Shown: piece by piece, positions 4,367 to 15,240 of the stretch
Layout of the letters: each line of letters starts with the position of its first letter
Position numbering within the stretch: position 1 is the first letter of the stretch
Virus record (IMG/VR): IMGVR_UViG_3300046002_002488
Span: 1 to 31,332 of that record
DNA: 31,332 nucleotides
Reading direction: 5' to 3' (one strand)
From: a virus
The notes under the pieces: generated by a model
The model's input: only the letters and a program-made list of their open reading frames with translations
Told to the model about the DNA's origin: nothing
The model's database searches: none
Translations under genes and position numbers: made by a program

Positions 4367-6493
4367 CTACATGCTGTGCTGTAAAATTCCTGAGGTTAGG
4401 CTATTCGTATCTCGCATGGTTCTGAGTATTTCGGTTAAGATACCACTTTGTTGATGCACTGCGGCTGTTAGTGCGCCAGTGTCCATACTAACTGGTATAC
4501 TGCGATTGTCTGATAATGGGACTACTGCTTCTGTGCCATGTAAGGTAGCTGAGTAACCACTTTCTGGACCAGATGATACACCACCTTCGGAAAATCCACC
4601 AACCATTTTATCATACATTTCACCGCCAATTGCAGCACCTCCTAGCACCGTAGGAATGCCAACTGCCAAACTTGCTCCCATTGTCGCTGGTGCAGCTGCT
4701 ATAGTAGCCCCTATACCAGCTATCCCCCCTAATACCACAGCGGTTCCTCTGCCTAGACTAGAACCAGAAGATTTACCAGAAGCACCATCAACTGCTTTCC
4801 TGACACTAGCTATCACATCATTTGCTACTTTACCAAATGTTTTAATAGATGGAGTTAGGATATCTTGGATAGACATTTTCAATGACTGTGCCGCAGCTTC
4901 AACCCCGGTTAGTTCGTTTTGTAATCCCGAATTTGCTCCTGATAATTGTTCAGCATCGGCTATGGCTTTATTAATATTAGCAGATTCTGTTTTAAATGAC
5001 ATGTTATACAGTTCATCATAACTTTTAGCAAGATCACCGTTTGCGCCAATTAACATACTCTGTTTACTTAATGCTGTTCCAAGTTGATCAGTTCCCGATT
5101 GCATTCTATCACTAAGTTCAGCTGTGCCTCTGCTTAACTCTTCCACCGATGTTCGTCCAGCATTTACACTATCCCCCCATTGCATAGCAGATTTGCCACT
5201 ATCCTGCAACATTGCCGCTGTATTTGTAATTGCACCACTTACATAATACTGCATGGCAGCTATTTTTTGGTCTTCTGATTTTAAGGCCAATGATGCTTTA
5301 AGACGTTCTGCTAGGAATGGATCATTTGTTGCTTTTGCTATTTTATTAACTTTTTCTGCATAAGCATATTGAGTTGCTAGTTTTTCTGTTGCCTCACGAC
5401 GAGATTTAGCTTCATCACCTAGTATGTCTGATACTATTCTCATGTTTTTAGCCATAGATACTGTGGCTTCTGCCATTTCTCTATTATTAGCCTGAGAACC
5501 AGCACGTTTGTATCCAACCATAACTTGTGCTACAAGCTCAGCTTGTTCAGCAAAACCAAAACCAAGATTCTGCATTTCTTTTTGCAAGGTCAGTCCACTC
5601 TTGCCTGTATCCTTGGCTAGTCTAGAGGTCACATCAGCAACAGCTTTAGCTGCGGTTGTAACTGTTAGACCGCTATCTGCTAGTGCCTGGCTGTTGTTTT
5701 TAATTACTTCACTAAATTGTTCAACAGTTAGTCCTGCACGGGTAGCATACATGCGCATGTCGTCCATGCCACGACCAAACAGTGCCCCTGCTGATGTTGC
5801 TGTCTGGAACGCTTTGATTGTTTTTTCAGCTTCTGTAGCCAGAAGTCTAACACCTTCTTTAGCGGCTGATGTAACTGCCGATGTAAAAAACTCTAATGCT
5901 GTTGATGCGATAGCCATCCTGCCGCCTAATTTGGCAGTCTTACCACCAGCGGCCATCATAGCAGTGCCCATTGTTTCACCAGTTTTTGCTATTCCAGTGA
6001 ACACACTTTGGGTAGAATCTAATGCAGTCTCCATTAGATCAGCGGCTAACTTAACTCCACTGCCACCACCTTGAAGGTTATTAACTAAGGTTTTTGTAGC
6101 ATTGAATAACCCTTTGACCAGAGTTACCCCAAGTATTTTACTAAAGTCAAGCCCAGCTTTTTTGTTAGTGTCTGTTAGGAATTTTTGTGCTAGGATATTG
6201 CGTTCAATTTCAAGCTTCTGACGTTTTAGTGGGTCTGTGACATCATCGATGTTTTGATTAAGTCTTTTTAGGTCTTCACCTAGATCAATGTATTGCTTGC
6301 GACCTTTTTTCAACTGTTCGTTTAGGTCAGCAAACTTTTTAGCTGTAGCATCATATAGTTCTTTTTGCTTCTGCTGTTTTTTCTCTGCAGCATCGAGATT
6401 TTTATTGGTATTACTGATATTTTTACCAAACTCACCCATACCTAGTTTTTCAAAGGCAGCGGCTAGTATCTCGGCTAAACGTTCTTCATCCAT
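4367..6493 (-). CDS. Tail tape-measure-like protein
   Basis: The 708-residue product has the layout of a tail tape measure, the elongated protein that sets tail length and is ejected with the DNA. Residues 25-110 are strongly coiled coil, rich in Lys, Glu and Gln. The middle is a long run of alanine-rich helices. A Gly/Ala-rich hydrophobic stretch lies near 580-622, and the C-terminus has GFSEGG at 633 followed by HGTEAVVPL at 652-660, a motif common at tape-measure C-termini. T4's equivalent is gp29 (590 residues), but I see no specific gp29 signature, so no gene symbol is given. No convincing ribosome binding site precedes the ATG. It is transcribed toward the portal gene and away from gene 26. 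Confidence 0.7.
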   Translation of the reverse strand: MDEERLAEILAAAFEKLGMGEFGKNISNTNKNLDAAEKKQQKQKELYDATAKKFADLNEQLKKGRKQYIDLGEDLKRLNQNIDDVTDPLKRQKLEIERNILAQKFLTDTNKKAGLDFSKILGVTLVKGLFNATKTLVNNLQGGGSGVKLAADLMETALDSTQSVFTGIAKTGETMGTAMMAAGGKTAKLGGRMAIASTALEFFTSAVTSAAKEGVRLLATEAEKTIKAFQTATSAGALFGRGMDDMRMYATRAGLTVEQFSEVIKNNSQALADSGLTVTTAAKAVADVTSRLAKDTGKSGLTLQKEMQNLGFGFAEQAELVAQVMVGYKRAGSQANNREMAEATVSMAKNMRIVSDILGDEAKSRREATEKLATQYAYAEKVNKIAKATNDPFLAERLKASLALKSEDQKIAAMQYYVSGAITNTAAMLQDSGKSAMQWGDSVNAGRTSVEELSRGTAELSDRMQSGTDQLGTALSKQSMLIGANGDLAKSYDELYNMSFKTESANINKAIADAEQLSGANSGLQNELTGVEAAAQSLKMSIQDILTPSIKTFGKVANDVIASVRKAVDGASGKSSGSSLGRGTAVVLGGIAGIGATIAAAPATMGASLAVGIPTVLGGAAIGGEMYDKMVGGFSEGGVSSGPESGYSATLHGTEAVVPLSDNRSIPVSMDTGALTAAVHQQSGILTEILRTMRDTNSLTSGILQHSM

Positions 6494-6517: not shown

Positions 6518-6525
6518 TATAAATA
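6518..6525 (+). promoter_or_regulatory. T4-type late promoter for gene 26
   Basis: An exact TATAAATA ends 36 bases before the gene 26 start codon, in the short divergent region between the tape-measure-like gene and gene 26. A GGAAAAA run before the ATG can act as the ribosome binding site. Confidence 0.75.
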
Positions 6526-6561: not shown

Positions 6562-7404
6562 ATGACTCAATCAAACCCATTAGCTAAACATTTTCGCCAG
6601 CCTGCGATCTATTTAAAGCTACCTAGCCAAGGACGTTATTGGTCCGATGACGCCTTAACACTAGGTGCTACAGGTGATATACCAGTGTATCCTATGACTA
6701 CCAAAGATGAGATCACATTACGCACACCAGACGCACTGATGAATGGTACTGGTGTGGTCAGTGTCATACAGAATTGCATTCCGGCTATTGCAGACGCCTG
6801 GGCTATGCCTAGCATAGATGTAGATGCTTGCTTGATCGCTATACGTATCGCCAGCTATGGTAACGACATGAATGTCACTAGTAATTGTCCAAAATGCCAA
6901 CACTCCAATGACAATACCATTGAACTAACATCTGCACTAGAGCAGATCTCCATGCCCAACTATGATAATCTATTAAAAGAAAAAGATCTAACTATTAAAC
7001 TAAAGCCGCAGACATATTTTGCATTGAATAGAAGCAATACCATATCATACAAAGAACAACGTATACTAGATGTCCTGACTAAAGAAGATGTTTCACCCGA
7101 GGATCGCGAACGTAATCTCAAAGCAGTAACAGACGAGCTGATCGAACTTAATGTAGATACCTTGACTGCCAGCACAGAATATATCTTGATGAGCGACGGA
7201 ACCAAAGTAACACAATCAGATTTCATCAAAGAGTTCTATTCAAATACCAGCGGTGCACTAGTTAAAAAAATACAAGACAAACTAGCAGAAATTGCGGCAT
7301 CAGCAGGGCTACGTCCTTATAAAAATGTCTGCACAGAATGTGAACATGAATACCAAACAGATGTGACGTTTGACTACGCAAATTTTTTCGGACTCGGCTC
7401 TTAG
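6562..7404 (+). CDS. 26: Baseplate hub / assembly protein gp26-like
   Basis: This belongs to the T4-type baseplate hub or hub-assembly family labelled gp26 in cyanophage genomes (Pfam T4_baseplate as I recall it). The N-terminal segment HFRQPAIYLKLPSQGRYW and the block TTKDEITLRTPDALMNG are characteristic. Two CxxC pairs, Cys109/Cys112 (CPKC) and Cys257/Cys260 (CTEC), probably bind one zinc ion. It is 280 residues if translation stops at TAG 7402. The final codons lie on a run that fits a -1 frameshift site, and a long open frame without a start codon follows, so a second, 352-residue product is likely (separate entries). That paired short/long arrangement resembles the tail assembly chaperones of other long-tailed phages. 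Confidence 0.85.
   Translation: MTQSNPLAKHFRQPAIYLKLPSQGRYWSDDALTLGATGDIPVYPMTTKDEITLRTPDALMNGTGVVSVIQNCIPAIADAWAMPSIDVDACLIAIRIASYGNDMNVTSNCPKCQHSNDNTIELTSALEQISMPNYDNLLKEKDLTIKLKPQTYFALNRSNTISYKEQRILDVLTKEDVSPEDRERNLKAVTDELIELNVDTLTASTEYILMSDGTKVTQSDFIKEFYSNTSGALVKKIQDKLAEIAASAGLRPYKNVCTECEHEYQTDVTFDYANFFGLGS
7380..7389 (+). promoter_or_regulatory. Slippery sequence for -1 ribosomal frameshift
   Basis: The run AAATTTTTTC holds two overlapping heptamers of the X XXY YYZ type, correctly phased to the gene 26 frame: A AAT TTT (7380-7386) and T TTT TTC (7383-7389). Slipping back one base at either enters the frame that is open from 7374 to 7619. The previous stop in that frame is at 7371-7373 and the gp26 stop is at 7402, so any shift must happen in a window of about 30 bases, and the slippery run lies inside it. 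Confidence 0.75.
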
Positions 7405-7619
7405 CTCTCAGCAATGAAGAAATTGTCGGCTATATCGAACAGCTCGACAAAGAGATAAGAGCCTTAAAAGAAGATGCCCTCAGGATGTGCTGGTATATGC
7501 GTGGTGGGCTCAGCTACGATGACAGTATGCTATTAAGTAAATCTGAACGCGATATCATAGGCGAAATCATCAAAGACAACTTAGAAACAACCAAAAAATC
7601 TAAGATGCCGTTCTTCTAA
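7389..7619 (+). CDS. C-terminal extension of gp26 reached by -1 frameshift
   Basis: This open frame encodes 76 residues beginning RTRLLALSNEE and ending KKSKMPFF. It has an acidic/basic helix (EEIVGYIEQLDKEIRALKED) and a MCWYMRGG motif near residues 33-40, which I recognise from short proteins next to gene 26 in T4-like marine phages. The frame contains no ATG, GTG or TTG before codon 33 (7485), which would delete the first helix. Frameshifting from gp26 at 7380-7389 gives a 352-residue fusion instead. It might correspond to T4 gene 51, which follows 26, but I cannot confirm that. Translation from a rare ATT codon at 7422 is the main alternative. No ribosome binding site was seen. Confidence 0.75.
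   Translation, partial: RTRLLALSNEEIVGYIEQLDKEIRALKEDALRMCWYMRGGLSYDDSMLLSKSERDIIGEIIKDNLETTKKSKMPFF
7396..7463 (+). other. RNA structure downstream of the frameshift site
   Basis: Bases 7396-7403 pair perfectly with 7456-7463 (8 pairs). The enclosed loop contains a second helix, 7423-7428 with 7445-7450 (6 pairs), which can continue past a one-base bulge with 7429-7431 and 7441-7443. The outer stem starts 6 bases after the slippery run, within the usual 5-9 base spacing for stimulating a -1 frameshift. Confidence 0.6.
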
Positions 7620-7735: not shown

Positions 7736-7969
7736 ATGGATATCTTAGCAACAGTAAAGAAATGGTCAGGTGCTATCGCTGACACAGCAGTAAGTGTACT
7801 AGCACTACTAATCGTATTAGAAGTGTTACTCAAAGGCGCAGCATTACCTTTCTTGCCAGCAGTAGACGTTATTGGTAACGTTACATCTATCGTCAAAACA
7901 CTAGGCGGTGAAGGTGTTGTTGGTTTAGTGGCAGTATGGGTACTGTATTCAATTTGGAAGAACAAATAA
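7736..7969 (+). CDS. Small two-helix membrane protein
   Basis: The 77-residue product starts MDILATVKKW. The ATG at 7736 is preceded by a near-ideal GGAGGT site at 7723-7728, so the longer frame from 7709 was rejected. Residues 14-35 (DTAVSVLALLIVLEVLL region) and 59-73 (GVVGLVAVWVLYSIW) form two hydrophobic helices joined by a short polar loop with a GNVTSIVKTLGGEG segment; both ends carry lysines. It has its own strong binding site and a terminator 27 bases after the stop codon, which suggests high and independent expression. The size and two helices would suit a holin-like or virion membrane protein, but no family signature supports either. I have an impression of similar small proteins in aquatic T4-like phages. 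Confidence 0.7.
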   Translation: MDILATVKKWSGAIADTAVSVLALLIVLEVLLKGAALPFLPAVDVIGNVTSIVKTLGGEGVVGLVAVWVLYSIWKNK

Positions 7970-7996: not shown

Positions 7997-8029
7997 AGCG
8001 TGGATATTCATTTATATTCACGCTTTTTT
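7997..8029 (+). terminator. Rho-independent terminator
   Basis: An 11-pair stem (7997-8007 with 8014-8024, one G-T pair at 8003/8018) with a six-base loop is followed by a run of T. It ends the transcript of the small membrane protein gene. Read on the other strand the wobble pair becomes a mismatch and the T run is shorter, so the plus direction is favoured. Confidence 0.85.
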
Positions 8030-8475: not shown

Positions 8476-9291
8476 CTAAAAATTTGTTTCTACGTATTGC
8501 TTAACTAGATTATAATATAATTGATTACTTTTAATGCCCGGGTGGCTGTTGTCAAAATTTAGGTCTAATTTTAATTTTAAAAAAGAATCATATAAGTTTA
8601 CCCAACTATCAGGGTCAACCCCACCTGTTTCGTCATAATTATCATGTTGCAGAGTATATAACTTATATATTTCTTCATCATCTCTATTTTTACAATTTAG
8701 AATTTCTTTTTGTGTAAATTCAGATAAATCACTAGGATAAAAATTGCCCACTTTCCGGACAAAAAAACCATTATCCCATGGACATAGTCCATTTATGTTT
8801 ATGATTTTAATATTTTTTGCAATATTTTTAATCATATTCACATATCTTAATAGATCTACTATTTCATAATGTATATGAAGTAGTGTTACGTATCTATTCA
8901 AACAATTTTGTATATAACTGTCTGTTAGTGTATGGCCATTTAGATAATGTGTTCTATTAGTAAGTTCCTTATTCCAAAATGCTGTAGTATCATATAATTC
9001 AAATCCTACATGAATTTTATTAATTCTTGGTATTGACGTCCACGCACAAATCACATATTCAATATTTGAATAGTCACCGAATGCCTTTATCACCTGCTCA
9101 AAAATATCAGAATTGTTCGCACCTGCATAAGCTACATTAACAGGAACTAAGTTTTTAAATAATTTGATATTTTCAGAACATAAATTTACCCATAGATCAG
9201 GAAATTCTTTACAGTCCCTACCTAGATCAGTTTCGTCGAAGCCAGTACCAGATGTAAATGAACAGCCAGCATATACAATTTTTTTGCTCAT
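8476..9291 (-). CDS. SGNH-hydrolase-like protein (271 residues)
   Basis: The protein has the layout of an SGNH/GDSL hydrolase, a fold that usually cleaves or transfers acyl groups on sugars or lipids. The N-terminal strand ends in AGCSFTSG, giving nucleophile Ser11. Gly57 and Asn59/Asn60 (YAGANN) fit the oxyanion positions, and FDNSHPG near the C-terminus supplies the Asp247-x-x-His250 pair. All catalytic positions are therefore present. The middle is variable and aromatic-rich with no recognised domain. No signal peptide is visible, so it acts in the cytoplasm or virion. It starts 6 bases after the GIY-YIG gene ends, with no obvious ribosome binding site. A hand count of 8521-8820 gives 29% G+C, against about 41% in gene 46, suggesting separate acquisition. 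Substrate unknown; surface-polysaccharide modification is a guess. Confidence 0.65.
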   Translation of the reverse strand: MSKKIVYAGCSFTSGTGFDETDLGRDCKEFPDLWVNLCSENIKLFKNLVPVNVAYAGANNSDIFEQVIKAFGDYSNIEYVICAWTSIPRINKIHVGFELYDTTAFWNKELTNRTHYLNGHTLTDSYIQNCLNRYVTLLHIHYEIVDLLRYVNMIKNIAKNIKIININGLCPWDNGFFVRKVGNFYPSDLSEFTQKEILNCKNRDDEEIYKLYTLQHDNYDETGGVDPDSWVNLYDSFLKLKLDLNFDNSHPGIKSNQLYYNLVKQYVETNF

Positions 9292-10171: not shown

Positions 10172-11944
10172 TTATACTATGTCGATATCAGTGTTGTAAG
10201 ATGTGAATCCGTTCTCTTTTACCACCGTCATTACATTACTTACTCGTCCACCTAGCTCATCTCTGTGTGATACTAACCAAATTGATTTATGTGCATCACG
10301 TGACATCTTCTTAAGAATAGCCATGGCGTTTTCTACACCTGATGCATCCATACCCGAATCGATCAATTCATCGATAAACAACAAGTTGATAGGTTGGTAT
10401 AAACTTTCCCATACATCACGAAATGCCCATGATAATGAAAGTATAAGTCTATTACGTTCACCTCGACTCAAGTTGTCAAAGTCTAGTTCTCTGCCTAGCT
10501 CTGTTATGTTTACGGTCAAGTCGTTCATAAACACCACGGTATGGGGTAAGCCAATACGGTCAAGATATTGGCTTAATCTCGCGTTCAAGTAGCTGAGATT
10601 TTGATCGATAATTCGTTTACGTATGTACGAATCTTTGTTAGTTAAGAGTTTGTACAAGAACTCTTGATGTTCTTTGATACGAGCAAGTTCATTCATGTTA
10701 GTGTAATCAATTTCGGCCAGTGCTGTTTGTCGCATCTCAACAATCTGTTCAGCATACGGGTCTTCTTCTATAGATTTAGCTTCTAGTTGTGATTGTAAAC
10801 TAGCCAATGAACTACGATGGTGGATGGCATCCTCTTCTTTGTCATAATAAACTTTTGGTTGCACACCTAGCTCGCCTAATCCTTGTTTTGCTAGGATCAG
10901 TGCTTCTAAATCACCAGCATGGACACCTTGCTGTGTTTCAGCATCTTTAAGTTTGCTTTCTTTAATTGCCAACAGTTCTTCGTGTTTATTGTCATGTAGG
11001 TCTTGCCCACAGGTATTACACTTGTGATCACGCAACTGTTGAATATCGTCTGTTAAATTAGCAATACCTTTGACTTCTCGAGTTAAATCTTGTTCACTAC
11101 GAGCAATGGCTTTGTCTAAGTCTGCTAGGTCCTTACGTCGTTGATCGTATGCAGATAATTCTTTGTGCGCTGCAATCTCGGCGTCAATATCTAATTTAAG
11201 TAATTCATCTAACGCTGTCTGTAATTTAGCAACGTCATCCTTACGTTTAGTCAACCACAACATCTGCCGACGCTGTAGACTTTCTATCTGTTCTTCAATA
11301 CGCTTATTGGCATCAGTCACTGCCTTGATGTTGGCTTCTTCCTGTTGAATGGCGTCCCTTGTAGCCTTACTTTGCTCTTTGAGTAGTTCTGCCTTCTCAC
11401 TCAATAAGGTAATACCTAACAGTTGCTCGATTATAGCACGCTGATCGTTTGGCTTTAATGCTAGGAATGGTTCTGTATATGTATTCAGAGCCACCACGTG
11501 CTTGAACATCTCATGACTCATGCCCAATAAACGTTCAATTTCTTGTTGCGTTTCTCTGCTGTCGCCTTGACTGTTGTCGTCCTTGGCTTCTTGTTCTTGT
11601 TCACCTATGTAGAATTTTAATACATTAGGTTTACGACCACGCTCAATCTTATAGTCAACGCCATTAACTTCAAAGTCTACAGTGACTAACATGGCCTTTT
11701 GATTAGTCTTATTAACCAAATTATCTTTACGTATGTTTGTCAAAGCCGTACCATACAAACTATAACTTAGTGCGTTGATAATAGTGGTCTTACCTGTACC
11801 GTTACGTGCACCTGTGTCGTCACCACCTAGATCAATGTTCTCACCTAGGACTAAGGTCAAGTCCTTGCGGTCAAAGTTAACCGCCTGGGTACTATTGCCC
11901 ACACTCATAAAGTTTTTAACTGTGAGATATTTTATTTTGAACAT
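10172..11944 (-). CDS. 46: Recombination endonuclease subunit gp46 (Rad50/SbcC family)
   Basis: With gp47 this ATPase resects DNA ends for phage recombination-dependent replication and takes part in degrading host DNA. In its 590 residues, Walker A is GARNGTGKTT at 45-54. Long coiled-coil arms (about 190-300 and 325-400) flank a zinc hook, Cys309 and Cys312 (CNTC). The ABC signature LSRGE lies at 492-496 and Walker B LLFIDE at 521-526, followed by the SHRDE switch region. All expected parts are present and the length matches T4 gp46 (560). Its start overlaps the end of an SGNH-like gene by 13 bases, so translation is probably coupled. In T4, genes 47 and 46 are near neighbours, so the two genes between them here are insertions. 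Confidence 0.97.
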   Translation of the reverse strand: MFKIKYLTVKNFMSVGNSTQAVNFDRKDLTLVLGENIDLGGDDTGARNGTGKTTIINALSYSLYGTALTNIRKDNLVNKTNQKAMLVTVDFEVNGVDYKIERGRKPNVLKFYIGEQEQEAKDDNSQGDSRETQQEIERLLGMSHEMFKHVVALNTYTEPFLALKPNDQRAIIEQLLGITLLSEKAELLKEQSKATRDAIQQEEANIKAVTDANKRIEEQIESLQRRQMLWLTKRKDDVAKLQTALDELLKLDIDAEIAAHKELSAYDQRRKDLADLDKAIARSEQDLTREVKGIANLTDDIQQLRDHKCNTCGQDLHDNKHEELLAIKESKLKDAETQQGVHAGDLEALILAKQGLGELGVQPKVYYDKEEDAIHHRSSLASLQSQLEAKSIEEDPYAEQIVEMRQTALAEIDYTNMNELARIKEHQEFLYKLLTNKDSYIRKRIIDQNLSYLNARLSQYLDRIGLPHTVVFMNDLTVNITELGRELDFDNLSRGERNRLILSLSWAFRDVWESLYQPINLLFIDELIDSGMDASGVENAMAILKKMSRDAHKSIWLVSHRDELGGRVSNVMTVVKENGFTSYNTDIDIV

Positions 11945-12507
11945 AATTCTTTTAACAGCACTTGATAGATATGTATATTACCAGGTTGATTGTAATGCAT
12001 CACTGGTCCTTTGTTTTCTAAATAAAATTCATAAAAGTTTATAATATTAGGAAATTCAAACAATTTTGAGTAATCAAAATGTGTGATATGTGTGACTGAT
12101 TTCCCATTGACTAAACTTTGAATTTCTTTACATATCATATTATGCACATCAATAGCATAGTCTAGATCAAATATATGTTTAAAATATTGCTGACATGCTA
12201 CTGAAAATTGATCAGTGCGATTCTCAATGTCAGCAAGTATAATGTCACAATTTTTATGATACTGGCTTTCACTATGAATAGGATTGTGGTTTACATGCAC
12301 CCGTGTTGCGCTAGTGTGAGTGATTATTATATGATCAAACTGCTCTAGATCACTATTCCTTAGTTGTTCTAATATTTTATACTCACCGATACCACATTCG
12401 CAATGATTAATAATATCATAATGGGCTGATAATAATGAAAACCAACCACTGAACTCGTCAGTCTGTTTAGCAACCCCAAAACTATCACCAAATAGGCCTA
12501 TTTTCAA
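11932..12507 (-). CDS. SGNH-hydrolase-like protein (191 residues)
   Basis: The N-terminus MKIGLFGDSFG is a classic SGNH block I with Asp8 and nucleophile Ser9. A glycine turn (ECGIGEYKI) and the strand IIITHTSATRV occupy the places of blocks II and III. Near the C-terminus MHYNQPGNIHIYQ offers His171, but no Asp three residues before it, so the Asp-His pair is not conventional and activity is uncertain. The start codon is TTG at 12507, supported by GGAG seven bases upstream; TTGA overlaps the stop of the preceding SGNH gene. The 3' end overlaps the gene 46 start. G+C is low (about 27% by hand count of 12001-12120). No signal peptide. It may act with the adjacent 244-residue relative; partner and substrate are unknown. 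Confidence 0.6.
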   Translation of the reverse strand: MKIGLFGDSFGVAKQTDEFSGWFSLLSAHYDIINHCECGIGEYKILEQLRNSDLEQFDHIIITHTSATRVHVNHNPIHSESQYHKNCDIILADIENRTDQFSVACQQYFKHIFDLDYAIDVHNMICKEIQSLVNGKSVTHITHFDYSKLFEFPNIINFYEFYLENKGPVMHYNQPGNIHIYQVLLKELCSK

Positions 12508-13238
12508 TTAGTACTCCACAAATTAGCAATAAAATCAGCAAGATATCGTTGACCTTCAATTGAAGGATGTTTAGTACCCGGGTCCAATAACTTCAATTGA
12601 ACGCAGGCGTCAGATAAACTGAAGTTAGTTGGTTGATAATAATTAGTTAAATCAAATTGATCGTAGATATTTTTTATTTCTAGTTCTTCAGCGGCAATCT
12701 GAACGTCGTTCATAGAGTCAAACGCATCAAGATAGATTATTTTATCGTTAATTGGTAGTTTGGTCAACTGTAACCAATTTGATAAATTATATGAATCAGA
12801 ATTAATAAACAAATAATTATAAGATTTATTTTTTAAATACTCTTGAAACATCAATATTTTTTGTAGCGTAAGTTTTAAATCAAATAGATCATTAGACCAA
12901 TAACGATAGTGCAACGACAGATATTCTTTATATTCTTTAGTATCGCCGTACAATGCGTTAGACATAGTAGGATTACCGTTAACTAAAAAATTATTATCTC
13001 GGCGTACCATTAATGTACGACGGAGAGCCGGCCAAGCTATAATTACATTATCGTACTTGTTAGCGGACAAGTATTTCATAGTAGTATAGATCACATAATC
13101 TACGCTTGCACCACGTGTGGCTAAGTTTGTTATTTGAGCACCAATTTTTCTCCCAAAAAGAATTGGCCACGCATGTTCTTTGGGATCGTCCAATCCATCA
13201 CCATAGGTATAACTAGCGCCGTTAATTAAAAAACTCAT
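12504..13238 (-). CDS. SGNH-hydrolase-like protein (244 residues)
   Basis: The N-terminal strand INGASYTYGDG resembles SGNH block I, with Ser9 as presumed nucleophile. The next conserved turn is TNLATRGASVDY (Gly in block II), and VIIAWPALRR matches the third strand. The C-terminal DPGTKHPSIEGQRYL carries His224 with Asp219 five residues before it, a wider spacing than the usual three. The ATG overlaps the gene 47 stop codon (ATGA), and its own stop overlaps the next SGNH start, so it is fully embedded in the 47-46 operon. G+C is very low (about 25% over three sampled lines) compared with 47-52% in two lines of gene 47. It is the largest departure in composition seen in the window. Confidence 0.6.
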   Translation of the reverse strand: MSFLINGASYTYGDGLDDPKEHAWPILFGRKIGAQITNLATRGASVDYVIYTTMKYLSANKYDNVIIAWPALRRTLMVRRDNNFLVNGNPTMSNALYGDTKEYKEYLSLHYRYWSNDLFDLKLTLQKILMFQEYLKNKSYNYLFINSDSYNLSNWLQLTKLPINDKIIYLDAFDSMNDVQIAAEELEIKNIYDQFDLTNYYQPTNFSLSDACVQLKLLDPGTKHPSIEGQRYLADFIANLWSTN

Positions 13239-15211: not shown

Positions 15212-15240
15212 ATTATATAACCTATAAATACAGTATACAA
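15212..15240 (-). promoter_or_regulatory. Sigma-70-type promoter for gene 55
   Basis: On the minus strand TTGTAT (15235-15240) and a perfect TATAAT (15212-15217) are separated by 17 bases, followed by a short leader and AAGGAAAA before the gene 55 start at 15183. Confidence 0.65.
15223..15230 (+). promoter_or_regulatory. T4-type late promoter for the gene 48 operon
   Basis: An exact TATAAATA ends 25 bases before the gene 48 ATG, with AGAGGT as ribosome binding site. It lies inside the spacer of the opposing gene 55 promoter. Confidence 0.8.

Follow-up and report, generated by a model that had tools for sequence, protein, structure and literature searches.

A predicted programmed −1 frameshift, followed by a covarying RNA stem, in the gp26-like, probable tail assembly chaperone gene of an uncultured jumbo phage lineage

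In a 31.3-kb virus record from IMG/VR (the whole stretch of DNA analyzed here, hereafter the window), a relative of T4 gene 26 very probably gives rise to a short and a long form of a chaperone by programmed −1 frameshifting. The sequence-level evidence comprises an overlap of two reading frames, a conserved slip site, a −1 protein that is conserved from the slip onward, a covarying downstream stem, and homology to T4 gp26 and gp51 (Table 1); the occurrence and the efficiency of slippage, its stimulation by the stem, and the chaperone role are what we infer from these features. The −1 extension of gene 26 that a preliminary description of this DNA had proposed thus found strong comparative support, with the slip site present in 345/347 related loci and a putative stem at the usual distance behind it.

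Table 1. Features of the gp26-like locus and its surroundings (window coordinates)
Feature	Position	Strand	Basis or remark
gp26-like protein of 280 aa, predicted short form (TAC-N) of the tail assembly chaperone	6562..7404	+	PF12322, phrog_150, alignment A1, AlphaFold2
TAG stop of the short form	7402..7404	+	ORF reading
−1 frame, open from stop to stop	7374..7619	+	81 codons; stop at 7617-7619
C-terminal half of the predicted long form (TAC-NC), sense part past the slip	7389-7616	+	76 codons
Slippery heptamer T_TTT_TTC	7383..7389	+	344/347 related loci; T_TTT_TTT in 1 more
Spacer between slip site and stem, 6 nt	7390..7395	+	4-6 nt in 131/132 relatives with a significant stem
Putative stimulatory stem, 5′ arm GGCTCTTA	7396..7403	+	Folding; overlaps the TA of the TAG stop
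Putative stimulatory stem, 3′ arm TAAGAGCC	7456..7463	+	Exact reverse complement of 7396-7403; covariation
Probable tape measure protein of the tail (708 aa), presumed chaperone client	4367..6493	−	phrog_4704 (E = 2e-4); synteny
T4-type late-promoter octamer TATAAATA	6518..6525	+	Consensus match only; 44 nt before the gp26 ATG

RESULTS

A gp26-like gene overlapped by an open −1 frame

The gp26-like open reading frame (ORF) matched PF12322 (T4_baseplate; E = 1.4e-16, 61.3 bits versus a curated cutoff of 24.5) and phrog_150 (baseplate hub; E = 9.9e-20), and the two cysteine pairs of its product, C109/C112 and C257/C260, were invariant among the relatives in alignment A1. Its 3′ codons read AAT TTT TTC GGA CTC GGC TCT TAG, for a protein that ends in ...ANFFGLGS. 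The overlap reported in the preliminary description (gp26 stop at 7402, −1 frame from 7374, 352 versus 280 residues) holds in all its numbers, the predicted fusion amounting to 276 + 76 = 352 aa. So does its count of 32 start-free codons: the first ATG, GTG, or TTG of the −1 frame is an ATG at 7485, 32 codons past the slip and without a usable Shine-Dalgarno (SD) sequence.

AlphaFold2 returned a confident mixed alpha/beta model for the gp26-like protein (mean pLDDT of 85) and an all-helical one for the −1 domain (mean pLDDT of 88). A Foldseek search of the PDB with the gp26 model gave no significant match and did not recover the HK97 gp13 tail assembly chaperone (TAC) fold; sequence searches of the PDB with profiles of gp26 and of the −1 domain likewise gave no match. 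The −1 domain alone had nothing convincing in Pfam or PHROG, where the best hits were phrog_36 (E = 0.034) and DUF1192 (E = 0.09).

A slip site conserved in phase and place

Within the overlap, the slip region reads AAATTTTTTC (7380-7389), and the codons of its heptamer T_TTT_TTC are AAT TTT TTC in frame 0 and TTT TTT CGG in frame −1. By itself, TTTTTTC is not rare, occurring 10 times in the AT-rich window versus 8 expected; judged from the comparison below, the signal is the phase, place, and conservation of the heptamer, not the bare string. Relatives were gathered from GenBank phages and IMG/VR, using collection scans seeded with single proteins and with a closer alignment (A5), one scan being queried with the −1 domain only. 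This yielded 360 gp26 loci, 13 of which had a truncated gp26 and were left out, leaving 347 with an intact gp26 3′ end. T_TTT_TTC was found in phase in 344 of these and T_TTT_TTT in 1, 0 to 11 codons ahead of the 0-frame stop, where the sequences share kinship and the counts are not independent events. The overlap therefore holds a conserved, in-phase heptamer of the form X_XXY_YYZ, as in a −1 frameshift signal, and at each slip-site locus with sufficient contig the −1 frame continued past it for 56 to 77 residues. The slip-site loci include those of jumbo phages (Atu_ph07, Phosso, SCTP-2, 121Q, PA5oct, RaK2, GAP32, CBB, XbC2, BF, and Munch) and of other phages (marine cyanophages, Methylophilales phage Melnitz, Vibrio phi-ST2, Aeromonas ZPAH1, and Delftia W-14), a set that takes in vibriophages as well as giant enterobacterial, Pseudomonas, and rhizobial phages.

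Codon usage around the heptamer sets it apart from the rest of these genes. Away from the slip site, ~4 to 13% of the Phe-Phe pairs in these loci were encoded as T_TTT_TTC (17/379, 8/110, and 4/31). Ahead of the slip-site pair, the residue may be S, N, D, T, A, H, or R, but T is invariably the third base of its codon, compared with 45 to 61% in the gene bodies. The preliminary description had pointed to two slippery heptamers, and both are indeed in phase; T_TTT_TTC is the conserved one, whereas A_AAT_TTT is not conserved, because the preceding codon varies among relatives (also AGT, TCT, GAT, GCT, CAT, ACT, or CGT).

A six-T homopolymer, present in 345/347 loci and longer in Melnitz (AGTTTTTTTTAA), might also cause RNA polymerase to slip, such that an extra U in some transcripts would put the −1 frame in frame and yield the same two proteins. 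We consider this improbable: in 344/347 loci the run has six T, no more and no fewer, and then a C; it shows no drift toward greater length and keeps to tandem-slip phase throughout, while a stem behind a 4- to 6-nt spacer and an SD-like element in cyanophages (both described below) fit a ribosomal signal.

The exceptions to the slip site, 2 of the 347, were Ackermannviridae phages 3M and VAP7, which have no T-run. Both retain the −1 extension, with CAG GTT TTC ATC TGA in place of the run in 3M (L027, 3150-3210) and CAC GTT TTT CGC TAATG in VAP7 (L031, 2980-3030); perhaps they use another slip site (GTTTTT-like) or re-initiation. An in-frame start combined with a missing slippery run, the pattern that the preliminary description had named as speaking against a frameshift, was found solely in these two, in VAP7 with the TAATG overlap.

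A −1 product conserved ahead of any possible start

The first −1 residues past the slip (R-x-R-L-L) are conserved ahead of any possible start codon, with R at +1 in 141/141 sequences and L-L at +4/+5 in 128/141 and 138/141, respectively. An SD-like sequence preceded the first possible −1 start in just 5/141. The alignment of relatives that the preliminary description had proposed as a check bore it out on both counts, with the slippery run in 345/347 loci and a −1 frame that offers no possible start in PA5oct and Paride. For Munch, S-RIM8, and Melnitz, the heptamer is also where this frame becomes open, and several phages have it closed one or two codons upstream. With the −1 frame closed just upstream of the heptamer, or devoid of start codons, the change of frame must therefore occur there.

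The downstream frame might instead be a separate small gene, translated by re-initiation or from a hidden start; it is annotated as such in many relatives (as "baseplate hub assembly catalyst" or as a hypothetical protein), and the TAATG stop-start overlap of VAP7 would suit this arrangement. We regard it as very unlikely given that the first start in the window lies 32 codons past the slip, that PA5oct and Paride have none, that the residues ahead of any start are conserved and SD-like sequences so few, and that a separate gene would leave both the conserved heptamer and the stem unexplained. Less probable still is a frameshift that one long gene acquired recently by mutation or owes to an error in sequencing, for which the single-frame look of the window, and nothing else, speaks: the same layout recurs in independently sequenced phages and in hundreds of contigs, the 0-frame stop being retained 0 to 11 codons past the heptamer everywhere, and this conservation of the arrangement refutes it.

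Under programmed −1 frameshifting, the reading that we prefer, most ribosomes would end at the TAG (7402) and release the 280-aa TAC-N. At the heptamer (7383-7389), tRNA-Phe paired on TTT TTC would re-pair on TTT TTT, the stem located 6 nt downstream would aid the slip, and a fraction of ribosomes would go on in the −1 frame to complete the 352-aa TAC-NC. A short protein together with a frameshifted long form that carries a conserved C-terminal extension is the composition of a G/GT-type pair.

A putative stimulatory stem downstream of the slip site

Folding of the 84 nt past the slip revealed an 8-bp stem in the window (7396-7403 with 7456-7463; z = −2.8), which a 65-nt fold misses (z = −0.12) because the 3′ arm sits at +67 to +74. 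The stem begins at +7, and its spacer of 6 nt falls within the 5 to 9 nt usual for −1 stimulators (PMC7618472). When synonymous −1 codons were shuffled, two runs placed the minimum free energy (MFE) of the window from +1 to +84 at z = −4.3 and z = −3.6; since only synonymous codons were exchanged, the stability of the stem is not a by-product of the protein. Across 164 sequences of the clade, chosen as distinct within the first 45 residues of the extension, the mean MFE z was −2.9 versus codon-preserving shuffles, and a control stretch further down gave 0.09 (n = 32). The best helix starting at +5 to +9 scored 22.7 versus 12.1 in shuffles that take no account of the few codons shared by the two frames, with p ≤ 0.05 in 80% of the 164; the 132 significant cases had a median of 10 bp, loops mostly of 42 to 50 nt, and 84 distinct 5′ arms.

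The two arms change together. In an alignment of 83 sequences, picked by gp26 kinship and not by the stem, 101 cells were changed on both sides, compared with 39.7 after shuffling and no more than 44 when the partners were slid, and the covariation score was 0.254 versus 0.143 and at most 0.111, respectively. Examples are the arms GGCTTTTGTATCTT/AAGATACAAAAGCC in one relative (L075) and AAGGCTTCTATCTTT/AGAGGTAGAAGCCTT, with G-U pairs, in another (L071). Conservation of the stem as an RNA structure is well supported by these comparisons, and that it raises frameshifting is, on balance, probable. A search of Rfam returned only chance matches below threshold.

Little or no stem signal was observed in 14 more distant phages (121Q, RaK2, PA5oct, W-14, and others; mean z = −0.65), and the stem is therefore a feature of the window's clade, not of the whole family. 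In cyanophages, the post-slip structure signal was moderate (z = −1.5), and an SD-like GAGGG/GAAGGG occurs just upstream, ~8 to 13 nt before the heptamer, in Glu-Gly codons. Their codon choice is biased at this element (GAG, 62% versus 32% background; GGG, 36% versus 10%), as would be expected of an upstream ribosomal stimulator. We lean toward a model in which, in the jumbo clade, a long-range hairpin (7 to 15 bp, spacer of 4 to 6 nt, loop mostly of 40 to 50 nt) strongly stimulates the shift, sits within the −1 coding sequence, and is kept by compensatory changes; the short-to-long ratio would be set by the hairpin here, by the SD-like element plus a weaker structure in cyanophages, and by gene duplication in T4.

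Relation to T4 gp26 and gp51, and a predicted chaperone role

T4 gp26 (E = 8.8e-64) and T4 gp51 (E = 3.9e-52) both match PF12322 and are therefore paralogues. T4 gp51 carries ~48 residues more, as a C-terminal extension (~200-249), and profile comparison by hhalign linked this gp51 C terminus to the −1 domain of the cyanophages (E = 2e-10 to 3.2e-12) and of the jumbo phages (E = 1.4e-5), making the extension of the predicted long form homologous to that of gp51. T4 would accordingly be seen as having two genes, 26 (short) and 51 (long), where these phages appear to have one frameshifted gene. In cyanophages and marine vibriophages, gp51 was described as being without the first ~200 residues of T4 gp51 and as alike at the C terminus (Sullivan et al. 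2010, PMC3037559); we read the cyanophage "truncated gp51" as the −1 half, the missing part of which gene 26 would supply via the frameshift.

Among the T4 proteins, gp26 and gp51 have been listed as chaperones of hub assembly, gp51 being needed for assembly and absent from the particle (PMC3004832). A role as TAC is likely for the gp26-like gene as well. On the model of lambda gpG/gpGT, short copies would be many and long ones few, the N part of both would cover the tape measure protein, and the tail tube protein would be brought in by the helical domain encoded in the −1 frame. The two forms in T4 would come from the duplicated genes 26 and 51.

Neighboring genes

The tape measure candidate adjoins gp26 in divergent orientation, its identity being based on phrog_4704 (E = 2e-4) and on position: jumbo phages, too, have a gene here, flanked by portal and gp26, and the RaK2 annotation for it is tape-measure-like. 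Sequence similarity to the jumbo counterparts was marginal (E of at least 0.016). The late-promoter octamer upstream of gp26 has one other copy on either strand (TATAAATA at 15223-15230, plus strand), 33 nt before the ATG (15256) of a plus-strand gene, and two copies are not above chance frequency across the window.

Downstream on the plus strand, the product of positions 7736-7969 (77 residues, no family match) is probably a membrane protein; its ORF has a GGAGG ribosome-binding site and is followed by a terminator-like hairpin at 7997-8024. Three minus-strand ORFs (8476-9291, 11932-12507, and 12504-13238) have N termini that, by eye, resemble SGNH/GDSL hydrolases (GCSFTSG, GDSFGVA, and GASYTYG); they are seemingly a local family, situated around a GIY-YIG-like ORF and gp46.

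DISCUSSION

A 2016 review names T4 as the exception to a G-T frameshift that long-tailed phages otherwise conserve (PMC5009743). This exception and the cyanophage gp51 lacking ~200 residues (PMC3037559) fit one picture, in which most of the T4 superfamily would frameshift gene 26 for the long chaperone and T4 would have split it in two. The −1 half is recorded as a separate gene, or is missing, in hundreds of phage records, and re-annotation is needed; among the relatives in which it is unannotated or has been given an internal ATG start are NC_019526, NC_071039, OR805295, and MK493324. The covarying stem leads to a testable claim on the means by which the two chaperones are kept in proportion in phages.

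Compared with the lambda pair gpG/gpGT and its counterparts in HK97, P2, and Mu, the pair predicted here has no detectable sequence relation. The slip sites differ, being G_GGA_AAG in lambda (PMC7618472) and T_TTT_TTC in the window, as does gene order, with the tape measure candidate of the window divergent on the opposite strand, in contrast to the G-T-H order of lambda. Certain tailed phages seem to shift without a stimulatory signal (PMC5009743), whereas the window's clade has a conserved stem. The −1 signal of bacterial dnaX combines a heptamer with a close downstream stem, as here, and its upstream SD-like element is matched by the cyanophage relatives only (PMC3711429); unlike the window, dnaX is a host gene with an A-type heptamer. 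The TAC locus of Vandenendeviridae/Andersonviridae is, as far as the consulted portions of the phage Adele paper go (PMC12846349), likewise a computational case, for a −1 shift that is conserved and takes place at a T-rich site close to where TAC-N ends, differing in its slip motif (GTTTTT), in its protein family, and in that those portions report no RNA stem.

Closest are the T4-like phages themselves. T4 gp26/gp51 share with the window gene both the family (PF12322) and the short/long logic, T4 having two genes and the window one frameshifted gene. The preliminary description had proposed a short and a frameshifted long chaperone-type product, which is strongly supported; it had also put such a pair as not being known for a T4-type gp26, and the novelty is smaller than that, these genes having been published as TACs. 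As related in the consulted portions of PMC10885494 and PMC12846349, T4-like TAC genes were identified by Vladimirov, Gautam, and Davidson (2022, Virology 566:9-15); the former (PRFect) cites that work for some T4-like phages that carry a short gene plus a long fusion gene, and the latter credits it with the poly-T slip sites in T4-like TAC-N genes. In the accessible literature, which covers that study through papers citing it and not as full text, we found no description of a covarying downstream stem at a T4-type chaperone slip site, and the citing papers, so far as consulted, do not mention one like that of the window's clade. The core phenomenon is thus already known in kind, and the window is an additional member from a lineage of uncultured jumbo phages, set apart by its covarying stem.
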